Origin: Aminivibrio pyruvatiphilus
GTDB taxonomy: Bacteria > Synergistota > Synergistia > Synergistales > Aminobacteriaceae
Assembly (NCBI RefSeq): GCF_004366815.1
Contig: NZ_SORI01000021.1
Location: forward strand, 1 to 54,709
Direction of reading: 5' to 3'
Length of the DNA: 54,709 bases
The notes under the pieces are model-generated. The model made no database searches. It saw nothing but the letters and a program-made list of their open reading frames with translations, and was not told the origin of the DNA. Positions 9,392 through 42,270 of the stretch are shown here, one piece after another. Positions within the stretch are counted from its first letter, which is position 1. Every line of letters begins with the position of its first letter. The translations under genes and the position numbers were made by a program.

Positions 9392-12300
9392 TTACTGCCC
9401 CAGCAGGTTCAGCACGTTCCGGGGGGCCTGATTCGCCTGGGTCATCATCGCCATGTTCGCCTGCGTCAGAATGGAAATCCGGACGTAGTTCATCATTTCT
9501 TTTCCGAAGTCCAGGTCCCGAAGGCGGGAATCCGCCGCCGTCAGGTTCTCCGAAGCCACAGCCAGAGCAGAAGCGGCGTGCCCCAGGCGGTTGGTCAGTG
9601 CCCCGATCCTCGCCCGCTGCCGGGACACCCTGTCAATGGCCCTGTCGAGAATCGTCATCGCCCGCCCGGCGCTGTCTCTGTCAGTAACCCGCAGGTCGGC
9701 CACTCCAAGGGTTTCCGCATCCATGGCTCCCAGGGAGAGCAGCAGATCTTCACCCTGGTTCGCCCCTATCTGCAGAACTGTGGAGTTGTCCGCGAGGTGC
9801 ACCGTCCGAAAGACCTGGGAGCTCATTCCGGTGATGAACCGCCCGCTCTCCCTGCTGTACCGGATTCCCAGGACGCCGAGAAAGGAGTCGAACCCGAGCC
9901 GGATCGCATCGCCCCAGATACCGCCGAGTTCCTTGCCGCCTTCGATCTTCAGGCCGTGAGCGACTGTACGGCCCGAGTGGGCATCTGTGACGGCGACGGT
10001 GAACATGGTTTCTTTCGCTTCGTTGATGACCGTCATCCCCAGGGCATTCAGGATCCTCTCGTCTCCATGGAATTTATAGGCTCCCCCGGCGCCGGAAAGG
10101 GCGGACCGGAGGATCATTGTCCCCTCTACGGCATCTATCCGGTTCATCCCCGCAAGAGGTCCCGTGAAGGTGGCGAACTTGTTCTTGTCGGAGGACGACA
10201 TCAGGTGCTTCATCGTTCCGTCGCCGAGTTCACTGTAAATGAGATTGTTGAGGCGGTCCAGAACCGTGTGGATTTCGTCGTTTCCGTACAGCGTCAGTCC
10301 TGCCTCCCTGTTCCCCTGGCGGATGAGGATTGTCGCAGGCTCGTCAAGGAGGAACTTGCCGTTGGCATCCCAGAACTGTTCCATATCCTCCAGTCTTGAG
10401 TAGCGGTGGGCCACCCCGCCGTCAATGCCTTCCCGGTAGACGGAAGAGAACACGGCGGCGTCGCGGACGACCCTGGGAGTATCGTCCGTCCCGGGTATGC
10501 CCGTCGGGGTTCCTCCATGGAAATCACCGAAGCTGAGAGAGACCGTCCCATCGTACACCTTGCCCCCGGGAACGCTGTTCATGCCGTAACTGAACGGGGA
10601 CGGTCCTGTCTGGTAGGTGTGCAGAACGGTTTGGCGGTTGTCCAGCACCCCTTCATCAAAGCGCCAGCTCATCGGGTAGAGCCCCGAGTCCGTATTGCCG
10701 CCGAAAAGATTGATTTCATCCACGGCATATCGGTTCGTAACCGGGTCCATGTCGGAGCGGCCGTCGGCAACCAGCGAGAGTGTGAAGCGGTCTCCCTCCC
10801 GAAGGCGGCTGATGTCAGTGAAGTCGAAGAAATTGAACCGCAGTCCGTCGAAGTCGGGCGAGAAACGGAGGATCACGTCGGTGTTGCTCTCGTTGAGCCC
10901 GTATACTTCGGACTCCACGTAGCGGTACCCGCCGTCCCGATCCATGATGTGCCCCTGGATGCGGAATCGTGCGCTGCCGTTCATCACCTCGAGCACGTCG
11001 AACAGCAGCATTGCGTTCCGTGTTTCGTCCGGGGCATATTCAATCCGCTCCAGGAAGTCCCGTTCCCCCTCGCCGGATTCCATATCCTGGAAGAAAAAGC
11101 TGTTGACCAGGGCTCCCGCTTCGGGAGACGTCCTCCCCTGGTAGTTCACTTCCGCCGTGATATAGGGCATCCATCCTGCACCTTCGCCTGCCCGCGTCCC
11201 GGCGGCGAAGCCTCCTCCCGCCACGTTCAGCAGCAGTTCGCCTGTGGCGGCGTTCGTCGTGATGTTGCTGTTTCCCGGATCGACGAAAAAACCCAGGAGG
11301 CGCATCGCCATGCCGTCTTCAACCCCCGCATCGAAGCGGTATTCCATGGTGCGGGAGGGGGAACCGCCCAGCCCCCACGGATTGGCGTCGATAGTGACGA
11401 TGGAGTCGGAGAGAAACGCGCCCGAAACGCCCGGATTGCTGTTCTCGTACGTGCCCCCGGCCCGGGCGGCGATGTTGACCACAAAACGGTCGTCCGTTTC
11501 GAGCTCTAGGGGTGAAAACGCGTCGAACCGGATTTCCGCGGCCCCGCCGCCGGCGTTCAGGATCAGCGTGTTTGCTGCGCTCACTGTCCCGTGGCCGTTC
11601 AGGTCGATGTTTTCCTCGAATTCCACACTGGTTCCGTCGCGGGTGTAGCCTTTCGCCCGGACGTTGTACAGGTTCTGTCCCGTCACGGTGAAGAGGATGG
11701 ATGCGTTCACGTCTTCCTGCCGCCACACTTCTATGGCCCCCGGAGGAAGAACCGTCCCGGGATCCTTTCCTGCGAGGTAGTAGGACGTCTCTTCTCCGTA
11801 CCAGGTTTGGGCGTACCACCGGTCGTTTGCCTGACCCGCCGTGTCCCACCCCGCGCCGGCCGCGCCGTAGCGTTCCGATGTACGGAGAATATCGGTGAAG
11901 GTGTTCACGCCGTCAAGGCCGTTCTGGATGAAGGATACCCGTGAGACATCGGAGCCGAAGGTACCGACCCCCGTCCGGAAGAGGTGGGGAAGGGCGAAGG
12001 TTCCTCCGGCACCGTCCAGTACTCCGTTGTTGAAAATCATGGAGCCGCCGCCGTAGGTATTTGTGCCGGAATTCGGCGAACCAAGGGAGGCGGAGTCGTA
12101 GGTGGACCCGGTCGCACCGTCCCGGATGCGGAAGTCCAGCCTGTCGTGCGCCCCGGCTGACGCCGCCGAGGTGAAGAGGGCCCAGGAGTCTCCGGCGGCG
12201 AGGTCCATTCCGGTCGTGCTGTCGGGAATAAAGACGGAGGTGAAAGGGAGCGCCCCGATGCCGGTCAGGGGGTTCGACGTGCCTGCGTCGCCCTCCCACC

Positions 12301-14803
12301 ACACGTCGGACCGGGATCCGTTCACGGCGTTTCCGTTCCTGTCGATCCCGGTGTAGGTGGTGGTGACCGATGCCCGGTCGCGGGCCTGCCACGTGGTGCT
12401 GTTCGCTGCCGCTCCTGCGGTAATTGAGACCGGTCCGCTCATAAGCTGCGACGTCCCGGTGCTCGGAAGGAACTGAACGCGGCGCCGCTCCGGAGAGCCG
12501 TCCGTGTTCGTGATGCGGAGCCTTCCGTTATGATGAGTCCCGTCATACCCCGGAGTACTGGCCGCGTCGGTCCAATCCGCATCGAGGATGTCCAGTCCGT
12601 CCAGGTCCGCCCGGAGTTCCTCGATGTTCCGTCCGGCGGAAAGGGTGGCGTAGGCTCTGCCGTAGTCTCTGGAAAGTCCGCTCACGTCGCCGGAGGAGCG
12701 GTCAAGGGTCTGGTTCCCTCCGAAGAGTTCGGTAATGGTGCTGCCTGCACCCTCGGAAAGCGAAATCCTGTACCTGGAGGTCACCGTCGAGGTCCGGAGA
12801 TTGATCTGCCCGGTGCCTCCTCCCGTGACCAGTTCAAAAACAGGCCCCGAGGGGTCGGCGAGATCGTCCTGGCCGAAAGCGCTGTTCGCCGCGGCCTGGA
12901 GGGCCGCCTGCACATTGTTGATATCCCTGCTGCCCACGGAAAATGATGTTGTGTATTCGTGCAATACACGGTGCGAGCTTGCCGAGCTCCCGGCCAACAG
13001 CATGGTGCCGCCGATTCCCAGTTCCTGCTCGAAGGACTCTGCTCCGCCGTCGGCCAGGACTTGCACCATGTACGAGCCCGAAATACCTCCCGCCCCTGAC
13101 GAATTGTTGTTTATCTGAAGCCGTCGTCTGCCTCCGCCGAGATCCGACGCGGCAAAGTCGATGTTGTACGCCGCAAGGTCCCCGTCAAGGGCAGCCGCGG
13201 CGGAAACAATGTCCAACCCGCCTACGTCGACGGTGTGTTCTCTCTGGAAATCCCGTGCCGTGCCCGTGGCCGTGCCTCCGTCGGCGATGACGCCGGCCAG
13301 TCCGAGGTCTGCGGCTCCTCCGGCCCCGGCAATGTCGAGGTCGTCTCCGCTGCCGTTGACAAGGTCGATCCGCCACAGCCCGCCTCCCTCGTCCACGGCG
13401 GACGCCGAACCCCATCCCCATCCCGTCAGAGCCGTGTTGATCGTTGCCGCCGCCGCTTGCATGTCCAGGTTCGAAACATCGAGGCTGTGGGTTATGCCGT
13501 CCCGGGTGATGGAAAACGAACTTCCGGCGGCTGTCCTGAACGTCGTCTGCAGAGTGACATTTTCAGCAGCGGCAGCCTGGTAGGTGAACTCAAGATTTGC
13601 CGTTGACACCGCCTCTGAATAATAGGAGGTGACCAGGTTCACGTCGGAGGAAAGGACATCCCGGCGGTCGACGGAATTTACCCTGAAATGGGTCCACAGG
13701 TTTGTCCCGAAGTTCGGATCCGTCTGGAAATCAACGTCGCCGCCGCCTGCGCCTATATTCACAGTCCCGCCGCCCGCGCCGCCGATGTCCGTCCAGGCGA
13801 GGCGCGTCTGCGAATTCACCGCTCCGCCGGAGGTTGACGCCGACATGGAAAGGTCCACGCCGGAGCGCCCCATGGGGTCCACGCGGTCGATCACGTCCGT
13901 TCCCGACACGCCTCCGGATTCTCCCCCGAAGTACGCCATGAACGGCACTTCGTCCGCAATGCGTACCTGGTATTCGCCGTAGGGAAGGATGTCCGGCAGG
14001 GCGCTGGCCTCAAGGCTGAGCACCCCGAGGTCCGCCGCAGGGGTGGTTGTTTCCGTGCCGTCGGCTTCGTGGTAGGAGATGCCTCCGAAGGGAACCTCCC
14101 GGGTCTCCAGCCTGTAGTCGCCGTCGATGAGGTGGAGGCTCCGCAGGTTGCCGAGGCCGGAGAACGCCCCGCTCTCGGGGGAGAACTGCACATTCTCCGA
14201 CACCGTACCATGTTTCAGATAGAAGATGTTCGTCTTTTGCACCTCTCCCTCCCCTGCGGTGGGGGTGATGCTCAGCCTGAAATTTCCCTCGCCCACCACG
14301 TTCTGGCCGAAGGCGTCCCTGGAGCGGAGCGAACCGTCCACGAACACTCTGATATGGGGGGAATCGGTGCTCCAGAGTACGGAGGCATCTCCGGAGAGCA
14401 GCTGTTTGCGGTTGAACTGCGTAGTGGACGAGATGAGGGTGATCTGTTCCTTAAGCTGATCAATCTCCTGCTGAAGGTAGGTCCTGTCCTGGAGGGTGAG
14501 GGTATCGTTGGCTGCCTGCACGGAAAGCTGTCGCATGCGCTGGAGAAGGGCGTGGGTCTCGTTCAGCCCGCCTTCGGCCGTCTGCAGCAGGGAGACGCCG
14601 TCCTGGGCATTCCGGACCGCCTGGTCAAGGCCCCGCACCTGGGCGCGGAGTTTTTCCGAAATGGCCAGTCCTGCGGCATCATCGGCGGAGCTGGTGATGC
14701 GAAGTCCTTCCGCGAGGCGGCGCATGGCTCGGGCGGAGCTTTGCTCCAGTCCTTTGGCTGCATTGACGGCAAACAGAGCGGAAATATTGGACATGATGCG
14801 CAT
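9392..14803 (-). CDS. fliC: Giant flagellin, about 1,803 residues
   Basis: This is a filament subunit of the flagellum, secreted by the flagellar export system. The first 150 or so residues are canonical D0/D1 flagellin (MRIMSNISALFAVNAA; RLAEGLRITSSADDAAGLAI; TQFNRKQLL). The last 100 or so are the matching C-terminal helices, ending NQAPRNVLNLLGQ. Between them are roughly 1,550 residues where ordinary flagellins have 100-300. This central part is Gly/Asp/Ser/Thr-rich and beta-like. It contains several modules that resemble Flagellin_IN repeats (near 436, 522, 616 and 718), and a duplicated unit at about 1036-1160 and 1264-1385. No HExxH protease motif is present. I chose the ATG at 14803, since GGAGG ends nine bases before it; an ATG three codons earlier would abut GGAGG. 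The frame is unbroken. Its position in the filament (main or accessory subunit) is unknown. Confidence 0.93.
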   Translation of the reverse strand: MRIMSNISALFAVNAAKGLEQSSARAMRRLAEGLRITSSADDAAGLAISEKLRAQVRGLDQAVRNAQDGVSLLQTAEGGLNETHALLQRMRQLSVQAANDTLTLQDRTYLQQEIDQLKEQITLISSTTQFNRKQLLSGDASVLWSTDSPHIRVFVDGSLRSRDAFGQNVVGEGNFRLSITPTAGEGEVQKTNIFYLKHGTVSENVQFSPESGAFSGLGNLRSLHLIDGDYRLETREVPFGGISYHEADGTETTTPAADLGVLSLEASALPDILPYGEYQVRIADEVPFMAYFGGESGGVSGTDVIDRVDPMGRSGVDLSMSASTSGGAVNSQTRLAWTDIGGAGGGTVNIGAGGGDVDFQTDPNFGTNLWTHFRVNSVDRRDVLSSDVNLVTSYYSEAVSTANLEFTYQAAAAENVTLQTTFRTAAGSSFSITRDGITHSLDVSNLDMQAAAATINTALTGWGWGSASAVDEGGGLWRIDLVNGSGDDLDIAGAGGAADLGLAGVIADGGTATGTARDFQREHTVDVGGLDIVSAAAALDGDLAAYNIDFAASDLGGGRRRLQINNNSSGAGGISGSYMVQVLADGGAESFEQELGIGGTMLLAGSSASSHRVLHEYTTSFSVGSRDINNVQAALQAAANSAFGQDDLADPSGPVFELVTGGGTGQINLRTSTVTSRYRISLSEGAGSTITELFGGNQTLDRSSGDVSGLSRDYGRAYATLSAGRNIEELRADLDGLDILDADWTDAASTPGYDGTHHNGRLRITNTDGSPERRRVQFLPSTGTSQLMSGPVSITAGAAANSTTWQARDRASVTTTYTGIDRNGNAVNGSRSDVWWEGDAGTSNPLTGIGALPFTSVFIPDSTTGMDLAAGDSWALFTSAASAGAHDRLDFRIRDGATGSTYDSASLGSPNSGTNTYGGGSMIFNNGVLDGAGGTFALPHLFRTGVGTFGSDVSRVSFIQNGLDGVNTFTDILRTSERYGAAGAGWDTAGQANDRWYAQTWYGEETSYYLAGKDPGTVLPPGAIEVWRQEDVNASILFTVTGQNLYNVRAKGYTRDGTSVEFEENIDLNGHGTVSAANTLILNAGGGAAEIRFDAFSPLELETDDRFVVNIAARAGGTYENSNPGVSGAFLSDSIVTIDANPWGLGGSPSRTMEYRFDAGVEDGMAMRLLGFFVDPGNSNITTNAATGELLLNVAGGGFAAGTRAGEGAGWMPYITAEVNYQGRTSPEAGALVNSFFFQDMESGEGERDFLERIEYAPDETRNAMLLFDVLEVMNGSARFRIQGHIMDRDGGYRYVESEVYGLNESNTDVILRFSPDFDGLRFNFFDFTDISRLREGDRFTLSLVADGRSDMDPVTNRYAVDEINLFGGNTDSGLYPMSWRFDEGVLDNRQTVLHTYQTGPSPFSYGMNSVPGGKVYDGTVSLSFGDFHGGTPTGIPGTDDTPRVVRDAAVFSSVYREGIDGGVAHRYSRLEDMEQFWDANGKFLLDEPATILIRQGNREAGLTLYGNDEIHTVLDRLNNLIYSELGDGTMKHLMSSSDKNKFATFTGPLAGMNRIDAVEGTMILRSALSGAGGAYKFHGDERILNALGMTVINEAKETMFTVAVTDAHSGRTVAHGLKIEGGKELGGIWGDAIRLGFDSFLGVLGIRYSRESGRFITGMSSQVFRTVHLADNSTVLQIGANQGEDLLLSLGAMDAETLGVADLRVTDRDSAGRAMTILDRAIDRVSRQRARIGALTNRLGHAASALAVASENLTAADSRLRDLDFGKEMMNYVRISILTQANMAMMTQANQAPRNVLNLLGQ

Positions 14804-14890
14804 GGCGGGCATCCTCCGGCTGTGGGAAAAAATGAAAGATCTTTGAACATCTTCATTGTACGTCAGGGAAAGACACGATATGCCGTTTAC

Positions 14891-14917
14891 TTCTCGGTTT
14901 CTTTCTATCAGCTCTTA
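14891..14917 (-). promoter_or_regulatory. Sigma-28 (FliA) type promoter of the giant flagellin
   Basis: Reading the minus strand, TAAG (14917-14914) is followed by exactly 15 bases and then ACCGAGAA (14898-14891). The FliA consensus is TAAA-N15-GCCGATAA, so 3 of 4 and 6 of 8 positions agree with perfect spacing. The fliD promoter here has the same layout, which supports this call. Confidence 0.78.
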
Positions 14918-15075
14918 AATTTGCCTGTTTTGGTCATTCTTTTGCTTGTATGGTGTCTTTGCCGGTTCAGGCATTTCAGATCCCTGCAAACAGCGACTGT
15001 CGGCCGGCCTGACAGATTTCTCCTTCACGGAGGTCCGCTCCCCGCAAAAGGGACGAAATTTCCCTTCCGACAGGG

Positions 15076-15081
15076 TATAAT
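15076..15081 (+). promoter_or_regulatory. Probable -10 box for coaX
   Basis: TATAAT is preceded by CAGGG and lies 39 bases before the start codon. No convincing -35 box is visible at 16-18 bases. Confidence 0.5.
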
Positions 15082-15120
15082 ATCCTGATGTTGAAATCCT
15101 TCAAAGAGGAGGACGGTACC

Positions 15121-15888
15121 ATGCTTCTCGTCCTTGACGTCGGAAACACCACCACGGTCATCGGCATCTACGACGGCGAGACCCTGGTGAAGCACTGGAG
15201 GCTCATGTCGGAGAGGCACACCTCCGACGAACTGGGCATATACCTGCTGAACCTGCTGGATATCTGCGGCATCCCCCGGGCGTCCATCGACGGGGCCATC
15301 TACTCGAGCGTCGTTCCCTCCCTCGACATGGCCCTCTCCGAAGGCCTGAGGGAATACCTTTCCGTGGATCCGGTCAAGGTAACGCCATCCCTTGACCTCG
15401 GCATCGAGATCGCCTATTCGCCCAGGCATGAAGTGGGGGCCGACCGGCTCGTGAACTCCGTGGCGGGGAAGGCCAGGTACGGCGCCCCCCTCATCGTGGT
15501 GGACTTCGGCACGGCCATCACCCTCGACATCCTGAACTCCGAGGGCGCCTACCTCGGCGGGACCATCTCCCCCGGACTGGTGACCGGCATGGAGGCCCTC
15601 TTCGGGCGCACGGCGAAGCTGCCCCAGGTCTCCCTGGAGCCGCCGAAGAGCGTCATCGGGAACAACACCATCGGCTCCATCCAGGCGGGTATCCTCTTCG
15701 GCAACGCGGGGCTCGTGGATTTTCTCGTCAGGAAGACCTGGGACGAGCTGGGCTGCAGAACGCCGGTGGCAGCCACCGGGGGCCACGCGGCCGCCATCGC
15801 CTCCATTTCCGAAACCATCACCGCCGTGGACCCGTGGCTCACCCTGGAGGGGCTCCGGCTCATCCACGAGAGGAACCGCCCAAGGTGA
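15121..15888 (+). CDS. coaX: Type III pantothenate kinase
   Basis: CoaX phosphorylates pantothenate, the first step of coenzyme A synthesis. The 255-residue protein has the ASKHA-fold motifs: phosphate 1 DVGNTTT (6-12), the pantothenate-binding segment GADRLVN, phosphate 2 VVDFGTAITLD, and an adenosine motif ending ATGGHA. The start ATG at 15121 has GAGGAGG eight bases upstream; the open frame extends further up but without a ribosome site. It begins the run coaX-dus-lysS-ligA. Its stop overlaps the GTG of dus (GTGA). Confidence 0.94.
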   Translation: MLLVLDVGNTTTVIGIYDGETLVKHWRLMSERHTSDELGIYLLNLLDICGIPRASIDGAIYSSVVPSLDMALSEGLREYLSVDPVKVTPSLDLGIEIAYSPRHEVGADRLVNSVAGKARYGAPLIVVDFGTAITLDILNSEGAYLGGTISPGLVTGMEALFGRTAKLPQVSLEPPKSVIGNNTIGSIQAGILFGNAGLVDFLVRKTWDELGCRTPVAATGGHAAAIASISETITAVDPWLTLEGLRLIHERNRPR

Positions 15889-16914
15889 CCCGTTTCCCTC
15901 CCGTTCTTACGTCACCTTCCCGGCCCGGATGGGAGACTGGGGGGCTGGTTCTCGATTCCCCCCTGATGCTCGCCCCTCTCGCAGGGGTCACCATCCCCCC
16001 CGTGCGGCTTTTTTATTCCCGCCTCGGGGCTTCAGCGACCCATACAGAGATGATCAGCTGCGCAGGGCTGATCAGGACAAACCGGAAAACTGCGGGTATG
16101 CTGCAGGTGCTTCCCGGAGAGGGTCCTGTCATCGTGCAGCTTTTTGCCGGAGACCCGGATACGCTCTCGAAAGGAGCTGAAACGGCGCTGGCGGAGGGGA
16201 CATTGTTTCGTGCCGTGGGCATAAACATGGCCTGCCCCATGCCGAAGGTGCTGAAAAAAGGAGCGGGAGCCCGCCTCCTGGAGAACCCTGACACCGCTTT
16301 TGCCATGGTGAAGGCCCTTACACGCTTCGGTTTCCCTGTATGGCCGAAGATACGCAAATGTCCTCCCGGCTACCCCCTGACCACGGAGGAGTTCTGCCGG
16401 GGGCTTCTGGACGCCGGCGCTTCCCTGGTCTGCCTTCACGGACGGACCCCCGCCCAGCGGTATGCCGGGGAAGCGGACAGGGATATCGTCGCACGGATGG
16501 CTAAAATGTTCCCCGGGAAAATATGCGCAAGCGGTGATGTCTATTCTCCCAGGGACATCTCTTTTTACCTTGATGCTGGATGTTCGTCCGTGCTCCTTGC
16601 GAGGGGTGCCGTGGCGGACCCTTTCCTTTTTGCCCGGACCCTGGCGTTTCTCGGCTATGACGTGCATAATATCTACGGAAATCCATCCCCGGATTTTCAG
16701 ATACTGTTGTTGCTCGATTTCGGCGACGGCGTATCGGCTTTGTGCGGGCAAAGGATGGCGGCGCTTTTTGCTAAACGCATTCTTGCCGGGCTGTTTCGAG
16801 GCATGGCTGGTGTGGGCGGTCTTCGAAGGGCTGCCGCATCAGTGTCCTCATGGACGGATCTCCGGGGAATTATTGAACAAAGCGGTGAGTATTTTGAAAG
16901 GAGAGAAAAATACA

Positions 16915-16931
<17 letters not shown>
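15885..16931 (+). CDS. dus: tRNA-dihydrouridine synthase
   Basis: This FMN enzyme reduces uridines in the tRNA D-loop. The 348-residue protein has the family landmarks: LAPLAGVTIPPVR near the N-terminus, the catalytic-cysteine segment NMACPMPKVLKKGAGARLL, HGRTPAQRYAGEAD and the FMN phosphate site CASGDVYSP...LLARGAV. It looks closest to the DusB group. The GTG at 15885 is chosen because it overlaps the coaX stop and has AGAGGAA upstream. The weakly conserved first 25 residues make a later start (for example the ATG at 15966) possible. It runs 17 bases into lysS. Confidence 0.88.
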
Positions 16932-20560
<3,629 letters not shown>

Positions 20561-40224: not shown

Positions 40225-42270
40225 TCAGGAGTTCGATCCCGTACCCGAAAGCTGGCTTACCACTGATGCAAGCCATGAGGCCTGCTGCTGCAGCTTCGCC
40301 AGGTTCACCTCCGCCTGGGCGAACTGCTCGTAGAGCCCCCGGGCCCGAAGCTCGAGGCGGGCTTCCGATTCGGAAATTCTCTTGTCTATGGTGGCGATTT
40401 CTGTCTGCCACGTGGTGATCTGGCTGGCGATCCGCCCCTTGGGCACCACGGTGCTGCCCACCTCCACCTGGGACGCGTCCACCATGTTGCCCGCGTACTC
40501 GTCCATCTGTGTCATGACCGTGTTCATGATGGCGGCCACGCCGTCAGGGTCGTTCCTCAGGGCGTCCATGAACTTGTCGGTGTTGAACTCCAGCTTCCCG
40601 CTCTTGCCGTAGTCGGTGCTCTCCGTGGAGATGCCGATCTGGGAGAGCAGGCTGAAGGGGGTGCCGAGCCCCAGGGTGTCCAGGACTCCGTCCGACGCGG
40701 CGAGGGAGAACTTCCGGTTCGGCGATGCCTCGATCACGAGCTGGTTGTTGACCACCTTGGCGCTGGCCATCCTGATGGGATAGGTCCGTCCCTGTGGGTC
40801 GTGGTTCATTTCGTAGGAACTGTTGATCTTGCCCGCTATGGTCTGCAGGGTATCCGACGGAGTCACCTCGATGGTGGCCGTCCGGACGCCCACCGTCACC
40901 GTAAAGGTGGAGTTTCCCGTCTGTCCGGCGCTTTCCATGGTCCCCTGCACGGGGCGCCCCGTCTTCAGGCTGTATTTTGCTGTGACCGGGTTCGTCATTA
41001 TCTGCCGGATCTGGGACTTGGTCTGCCAGAGCAGGGAGTTTCCATGGAGCAGGCCGAACTTTTTGTAGAAGTCGTCGTTCTTGTACTGGTCGTCCTTCTG
41101 GGAGCTGGAAGCAGTCGAAGACTCGCTCAGGCGTATGTTGATCCAGTCCATGAGATCGTTGAAGGCGGTGACATAGTCCTGGATGCCCGTCACGGCCTTC
41201 TCGGCGTCCTGGGTGATGTCCATGACCACTGATCCGGGCCCGTTGACGGTCAGCTTTACCCCTTCGATGAGGTCGTCGATCTGGTTGGACGACCTGGTGA
41301 TGGTGAGTCCGTCGATTTTCACCACCGCGTCCTGGGCGGCAAGGTAGTGGTCTGCCGTATCGTCGTCCAGCTTCAGGAGGGAGAGCAGGTCGGCGTTTCC
41401 GTCAAGGCTGAAGACGCTCGAATTCACCGTGTAGGATACCTCGTAGGAGGTTCCCGCCGCGGGGCCGTGACCGTCGATCCAGGTGATCTCGTCGCTTCCG
41501 GAGTCCACGGTGAAATCCGTCCCCTCCGCGTAGGTGACGGAGCCTGCCTTGATGGTGAGGGTTCCGTTCGAGGGGGCGTCCTTCGCCACGGTGAACCCGA
41601 GCTTGTCCCGGGTGCCGCTGCCCCTGGTGATGGTGCTCTTGTCGGTGGTCTCCCCGAGGCCCGTATTGGCGCTCTTTATGACCAGCCGGTTGTCGATCAC
41701 CGATGCCGTAATGCCGAGGCTTTCCCCGTAGGCCTTTCCCGTGGCGGGATCAAGGGTCATGTCCTTCGCGTCGTTGATCTTCTGGGCTATGGTGGTAAGG
41801 GTGTCGGTGGTCTTGACCTCGATTTCCGCCCTCCGGCCCCCCACGTTGATGTAGAACTTCTGCGCCGAGGCGAGTCCCGCCTCGCTCATGGCAGTCTTGA
41901 TCTGTGCGCTGAACCGGTTCTGGGCAGTGGCTTTCTGCAGAACCTCTATTTCGTGGCGGCTGACGGCGGCATCGGCTGAGACAGTGGCCGCCACCACGCT
42001 CTGGGCGTTCACCCCCGAGAGAACGGTGAATTCGGCAGCCTTCGCCTGGAAGGTGGATGCCAGCTTCAGAGGCGTCACGGCAGACCGCATGGTCTTCATG
42101 GAAGCCGAAAATTCGTTGAACAGGCCGATCTTCAGTTCCAGGGTATCCTGCTTGGCAATCAGGGGCTCCTGGGACTTGCGGGCGTTTTCTATAAGCTTGT
42201 CCGCCATGCTCCCCCAGTCAATGCTGGAGGAAATGCCGGGTATGGAAAAAGTGGACTGGTAATCACCCAT
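40225..42270 (-). CDS. fliD: Flagellar filament cap protein FliD (HAP2)
   Basis: FliD caps the filament tip and guides flagellin folding. The 681-residue protein has the N-terminal FliD domain (FSIPGISSSIDWGSMADKLI at about 8-27), a central part with two Flagellin_IN type motifs (around residues 137-205 and 435-510), and the C-terminal FliD helices ending with a coiled-coil stretch. This is longer than enteric FliD (about 470). The start ATG at 42270 has GGGAG upstream and a sigma-28 promoter 43 bases before it. No fliS follows. Its unusual length may be matched to the giant flagellin. Confidence 0.94.
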   Translation of the reverse strand: MGDYQSTFSIPGISSSIDWGSMADKLIENARKSQEPLIAKQDTLELKIGLFNEFSASMKTMRSAVTPLKLASTFQAKAAEFTVLSGVNAQSVVAATVSADAAVSRHEIEVLQKATAQNRFSAQIKTAMSEAGLASAQKFYINVGGRRAEIEVKTTDTLTTIAQKINDAKDMTLDPATGKAYGESLGITASVIDNRLVIKSANTGLGETTDKSTITRGSGTRDKLGFTVAKDAPSNGTLTIKAGSVTYAEGTDFTVDSGSDEITWIDGHGPAAGTSYEVSYTVNSSVFSLDGNADLLSLLKLDDDTADHYLAAQDAVVKIDGLTITRSSNQIDDLIEGVKLTVNGPGSVVMDITQDAEKAVTGIQDYVTAFNDLMDWINIRLSESSTASSSQKDDQYKNDDFYKKFGLLHGNSLLWQTKSQIRQIMTNPVTAKYSLKTGRPVQGTMESAGQTGNSTFTVTVGVRTATIEVTPSDTLQTIAGKINSSYEMNHDPQGRTYPIRMASAKVVNNQLVIEASPNRKFSLAASDGVLDTLGLGTPFSLLSQIGISTESTDYGKSGKLEFNTDKFMDALRNDPDGVAAIMNTVMTQMDEYAGNMVDASQVEVGSTVVPKGRIASQITTWQTEIATIDKRISESEARLELRARGLYEQFAQAEVNLAKLQQQASWLASVVSQLSGTGSNS

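Follow-up and report, generated by a model that had tools for sequence, protein, structure and literature searches.

Earlier work has described giant flagellins, their enlargement through domain duplication and examples from Synergistetes (PMC6248924). The two examples studied so far, from Bermanella marisrubri and Oleibacter marinus, have 1,020 and 1,190 residues, and each is the sole flagellin of its genome (Thomson et al. 2018, PMC6248924). Their central insert consists of duplicated domains together with extra sequence, and they build thick filaments; giant flagellins are known to form filaments of at least 30 nm, the purpose of which Thomson et al. left open (PMC6248924). The same work lists a giant flagellin from Aminomonas paucivorans, which belongs to the same phylum as the organism considered here, by size alone and without anatomy. 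A further class with an enlarged surface region is flagellinolysin (NF033876), which carries a protease domain.

Here we describe a flagellin of 1,803 residues encoded in a 54,709-nucleotide stretch of the Aminivibrio pyruvatiphilus genome (contig NZ_SORI01000021.1, hereafter the window). Like the Bermanella and Oleibacter proteins, it exceeds 1,000 residues, has normal D0/D1 ends and carries a large surface insert with internal domain duplication (R1 to R4 and E1 to E3 below). As known here from its sequence, it differs from them in its length (family members reach at least 2,139 residues), in being second to an ordinary flagellin and in containing two families of repeats. It shares an enlarged surface region with flagellinolysin but lacks the protease domain, and a motif check agrees with the original prediction that no HExxH is present. 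We therefore regard the protein as a larger, modular variant of the known giant flagellins and not as a new category. In the open literature, our searches returned no account of its architecture, of the copy-number series described below or of its sharing across phyla, and a search on the flagella of Synergistota returned nothing useful. If our reading is correct, the size range of flagellins extends well past the two giants studied so far, and a filament surface can be enlarged one module at a time with domains that are already part of the flagellar repertoire.

The features of the gene and its product are collected in Table 1. The minus-strand frame ending at 9392 is uninterrupted for 1,806 codons from its first ATG at 14812. 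Two in-frame starts are available, ATG 14812 (1,806 residues) and ATG 14803 (1,803 residues); the latter aligns with the starts of the homologues and has GGAGG nine bases 5′ of it. At the position aligned with the upstream element listed in the table, the two closest homologues carry TAAA-N16-GCCGAAAA, a clear sigma-28-like promoter that scores 11/12 and was equalled in none of 300 shuffles. The window's own element is degenerate, and in the shuffle comparison its score is not above chance.

Table 1. Features of the giant flagellin gene, with positions in the window and the basis for each assignment.
Feature	Position	Strand	Residues	Basis or remark
Giant flagellin gene	9392..14803	-	1-1803	1,803 aa, 191 kDa, zero cysteine
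N-terminal D0/D1 half	14168..14803	-	1-212	Pfam Flagellin_N; BLASTP
Region after the N-terminal half	13544..14167	-	213-420	Conserved in giants; pLDDT mostly <50
R1, Flagellin_IN / FliD-D2-like module	13247..13534	-	424-519	Profiles, HMM, fold
R2 module	12947..13270	-	512-619	Profile self-comparison, HMM count
R3 module	12665..12979	-	609-713	Profile self-comparison, HMM count
R4 module	12404..12676	-	710-800	Profile self-comparison, HMM count
E1, divergent first large outer domain	11849..12391	-	~805-985	hhalign vs E3 93%
E2 domain	11222..11806	-	1000-1194	hhalign vs E3 98%, E 5e-13; HMM
E3 domain	10529..11095	-	1237-1425	Profiles, HMM, fold match
C-terminal D1/D0 half	9395..10456	-	1450-1803	Pfam Flagellin_C
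Shine-Dalgarno GGAGG	14813..14817	-		Sequence reading
Degenerate sigma-28-like promoter TTAAG-N16-CCGAGAA	14891..14918	-		Alignment with two closest homologues

Both ends of the protein are recognized above the Pfam cut-offs, Flagellin_N at residues 3-139 (E 3e-35) and Flagellin_C at residues 1716-1801 (E 2e-19), and the scan of the whole protein found no domain between them. These matches, together with full-length homologues, bear out the earlier claims of a flagellin of about 1,803 residues in one frame with both canonical ends intact; with the named flagellin models of NCBIfam, the protein does not reach the cut-off scores. By BLASTP, identity to the ordinary flagellin encoded in this genome is 60% for the N-terminal half and 42% for the C-terminal half. 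The original prediction placed about 1,550 residues between the ends. A large surface region is indeed there; however, alignment with the order's ordinary flagellins covers residues 1 to ~250/300 and ~1260/1450 to 1803, so the part that is truly extra amounts to about 1,000 residues, roughly 300-1260. Residues 213 to about 300 are also present in some ordinary flagellins.

Profile comparisons show the insert to be built of duplicated modules, which resemble flagellar outer domains. A self-BLAST of the window protein revealed no repeats, and they surfaced only when profiles built from 19 family members were compared with hhalign and counted with HMMs. Four R modules of about 95 residues span residues 424-800, with probabilities of 42-94% and a mean pairwise identity of 24%, and are followed by three E domains of about 200 residues each. 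A single E domain, aligned with E3 of the window protein, is present in many ordinary flagellins of the order, and ordinary flagellins from Bacillota also have one. Flagellin_IN (PF07196) matches four of the 19 family members (best E 1e-5), and gave no match at the Pfam cut-off in the window protein itself.

Structure prediction of the central region and a domain search had been proposed as a check on the original prediction, and the outcome was partial: the R region (mostly pLDDT 80-95) and the cores of E2 and E3 (about 75-92) were modelled by AlphaFold and found flagellar matches, whereas residues ~205-380 and E1 were modelled poorly. The first 18 matches to the R-region model in VIA-align are all flagellar (FliD, FlgE and D2/D3 of Pseudomonas FliC), with Z from 7.3 to 4.5, values below 8 that may reflect a common arrangement; this ranking agrees with the Flagellin_IN matches in the four family members. 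The R fold is predicted to resemble that of Flagellin_IN and the D2-D3 domains of FliD (Z 7.3) and Pseudomonas FliC (Z 6.0), proteins that have few such domains where the window protein has four in tandem and the family from none to 11. For E3, the best fold match is the Geovibrio thiophilus flagellin (9au6; Z 8.6, rmsd 5.3, 191 residues), followed by FlgL at Z ~5. With 792 residues, the Geovibrio protein is far smaller and only 10% identical in sequence, and our literature search on its filament found no paper. Foldseek alone gave no match at E <= 0.001 for either the R or the E model, so the assignment of R as FliD/FliC-D2-like and of E as a flagellin outer domain is supported rather than proved.

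The number of R modules varies across the family. Four members of 1,577-1,713 residues have none and form their own clade in both trees described below; the window protein, its two close relatives and the Bacillota members have four, and the others have four or five. At least 11 are found in G188, a metagenome-assembled genome (MAG) labelled Thermotogaceae, where their mean identity is 29% and the highest 50%; since the copies are mutually diverged, they are not an assembly echo. This MAG (L126 and L097/L136) contains a single flagellin N-terminal end of 1,646 residues, which bears the tandem R modules, and a single C-terminal end of 773 residues, each running off the edge of its own contig, plus an FlgL-like gene. 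The two fragments likely belong to a single flagellin, the only one of the MAG, with a length above 2,400 residues, roughly 2,500. The natural series of zero, four to five and 11 R modules offers a test of the purpose of thick filaments.

Collinear homologues of 1,815 and 1,840 residues occur in two genomes of the same family (G028 and G012), with about 67-68% identity over residues 1-1803, and more distant relatives of 1,577-2,139 residues are found across the order. The insert is matched at E <1e-23 in 23 of the 183 genomes of the order, from four families. We take the Aminomonas paucivorans protein to be probably a member of the same family. A single-protein scan of genomic and viral contigs confirmed no close relative; the alignment-based scan gave 24 loci with relatives. 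Comparison of the two closest homologues with each other gives a dN/dS of 0.22 over the gene, 0.27 over R and E1-E2 and 0.10-0.11 at the ends; between the window and its homologues it is 0.19-0.31 within the insert, and an ordinary flagellin pair gives 0.26. Purifying selection acts on all of the gene, the insert as well. Because the homologues are full length and collinear and the insert itself is constrained, neither a chance frame nor an assembly error joining two genes, which the original prediction had named as its possible refutation, accounts for the giant.

A search for other flagellin genes, also proposed at the outset, found one in this genome (98.9% complete, 62 contigs): an ordinary flagellin of 776 residues. 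It belongs to a late flagellar cluster that also encodes FlgK, FlgL, FliW, FlaG and a Maf-type protein and includes sugar genes. The giant is the genome's second flagellin and, given the ordinary one, need not be the main filament protein. Its gene lies alone between comEC and coaX, apart from the flagellar cluster, and is an orphan in most relatives too. The filament cap protein FliD (681 residues, with Flagellin_IN) is encoded at 40225-42270 of the window, also on the minus strand and 26 kb from the giant gene; the FliS gene is on another contig, and FlgM is present in the genome. In G012 a Maf-type gene, flaG and the gene of the ordinary flagellin are found ~1.1 kb away from the giant gene; apparent fliS and flaG genes follow soon after it in a Syntrophomonadaceae genome (neighbours in both named by eye).

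We consider it likely that the giant is a real, selected second flagellin, exported and polymerised through its D0/D1 ends, with a large outer coat, and that it serves as an alternative or minor subunit of a thick filament. The gene would most likely have arisen when outer-domain modules of an ordinary flagellin were duplicated in tandem. Its product would leave the cell through the flagellar type III system and polymerise like any flagellin. Each subunit would add about 1,200 surface residues to the coat of the filament, exceeding the ordinary flagellin by ~1,000, in the form of four consecutive FliD/FliC-D2-like modules together with three large outer domains. Used as a minor or alternative subunit, it could make the filament thicker, stiffer or adhesive, and a crude mass estimate combined with analogy to known giant flagellins (PMC6248924) leads us to expect a diameter of 32-46 nm. 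In other flagella, outer domains make filaments more stable in viscous media (PMC10256154). The absence of cysteine, the clear sigma-28-like promoter of the closest homologues and the presence of FliD, FliS, FlgK, FlgL, FlgM, FlaG, FliW and a Maf-type protein in the genome count in favour of this reading; the location away from the flagellar cluster and the degenerate promoter count against it, and the filament may consist entirely of the ordinary flagellin. The same orphan locus and promoter, together with the occurrence of the giant in only about 23 of 183 genomes, would fit an extra copy that the cell can spare or keeps silent, with little expression and no function of its own. This we judge improbable, because an open frame of 5.4 kb has been kept with dN/dS of about 0.2 in all its parts, in an old lineage retained by four families. 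That the giant is a hook-filament junction protein of the FlgL type and not a filament subunit is scarcely credible: Flagellin_N and Flagellin_C are common to FlgL, and the FlgL of this genome is itself large at 1,006 residues, but flagellin models outscore FlgL models by far (E 1e-70 versus 3e-21), the ends of the giant cluster with Synergistales flagellins in the tree, and the genome has its separate FlgL.

If a second flagellin with a large coat is accepted, the coat could still act in more than one way. The original prediction raised adhesion, ligand binding or enzyme activity for the surface region. Enzymatic flagellins exist (PMC7643111), yet an enzyme displayed on the filament in the manner of flagellinolysin is very improbable here: besides the missing HExxH, the flagellinolysin model matches the C-terminal end region only (69.7 bits against a cut-off of 205), neither Pfam, NCBIfam nor fold comparison gives an enzyme domain, and the best fold matches are flagellar structural domains. 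A weak match between colicin M and the R region (E 0.02) would point the other way, but we attribute it to chance, the alignment being gappy with an accuracy of 0.66 and the catalytic residues apparently not carried over. Enzyme activity is thus unsupported and unlikely. More plausible, though still on the doubtful side, is that the insert is mainly an adhesin or partner-binding coat, directed at a substrate or at syntrophic partners, in which the R string holds the E domains further out and mechanics are secondary. The ends and the E set are constant in a family whose R count ranges from 0 to 11, a pattern like that of adhesin stalks. In other flagella, outer domains adhere to surfaces (PMC8931119), and some relatives come from lineages labelled syntrophic. 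Pfam scans, however, found no known binding domain, and since the R count alters the bulk of the filament as well, it cannot separate an adhesive from a mechanical reading.

The tree built from the D0/D1 ends places the Synergistales giants together (98/96), apart from nearly all ordinary flagellins, the sole exception being one copy of a tandem pair (G007, below) that falls among the giants; the AU test does not reject a single giant clade (p 0.22). Because their ends cluster in this way, the giant is an old paralogous line retained beside the ordinary flagellin. The same insert occurs in flagellins of Bacillota MAGs at 38-40% identity over ~700 residues. Giant flagellins carrying it were observed in Syntrophomonadaceae MAGs (L084, L085 and L086), with the frame of L085 broken near the C-terminal part. 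Insert fragments were also found in Spirochaetaceae, Dojkabacteria and Thermotogaceae MAGs (L087, L088 and L097), for which misbinning is possible because the contigs are only 3-5 kb. Where tested, the ends of the Bacillota giants cluster with a Bacillota flagellin and not with that of the window (AU p 0.027 against the grouping; both branches are long). In the insert tree, the window's clade joins the non-Synergistota inserts with support of 81-89. As the alternative is not rejected (AU p 0.10-0.14), we do not claim a swap of the insert, and exchange of a surface cassette between phyla is a lead rather than a result. The bolder proposal would be a length-tunable, exchangeable cassette of 0 to at least 11 R modules plus tandem E domains, moved between phyla (Synergistota, Bacillota and Spirochaetota or Thermotogota MAGs) and serving a second filament type as a coat for contact or adhesion, its largest subunit being one flagellin of ~2,500 residues; we hold this to be rather unlikely.

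Thomson et al. asked whether other flagellar parts enlarge together with giant flagellins (PMC6248924). In the window's genome (G000:C14, L004), FlgL (1,006 residues, 12469-15489, with a Flagellin_IN match) and FlgK (830 residues, 15503-17995) both look large. Across the order, FlgK is large throughout, at 810-1,050 residues, including in genomes that lack a giant-flagellin match. As its size is independent of the presence of the giant, we dropped enlarged junction proteins as a marker for giant flagellins.

One relative, G007 (L049 1056-8846), encodes a giant of 1,713 residues and a flagellin of 875 residues in tandem. The N-terminal 30 residues of the two are nearly identical, which suggests conversion between the copies. 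Within the set, HExxH occurs only in this 875-residue flagellin, from about residue 388.
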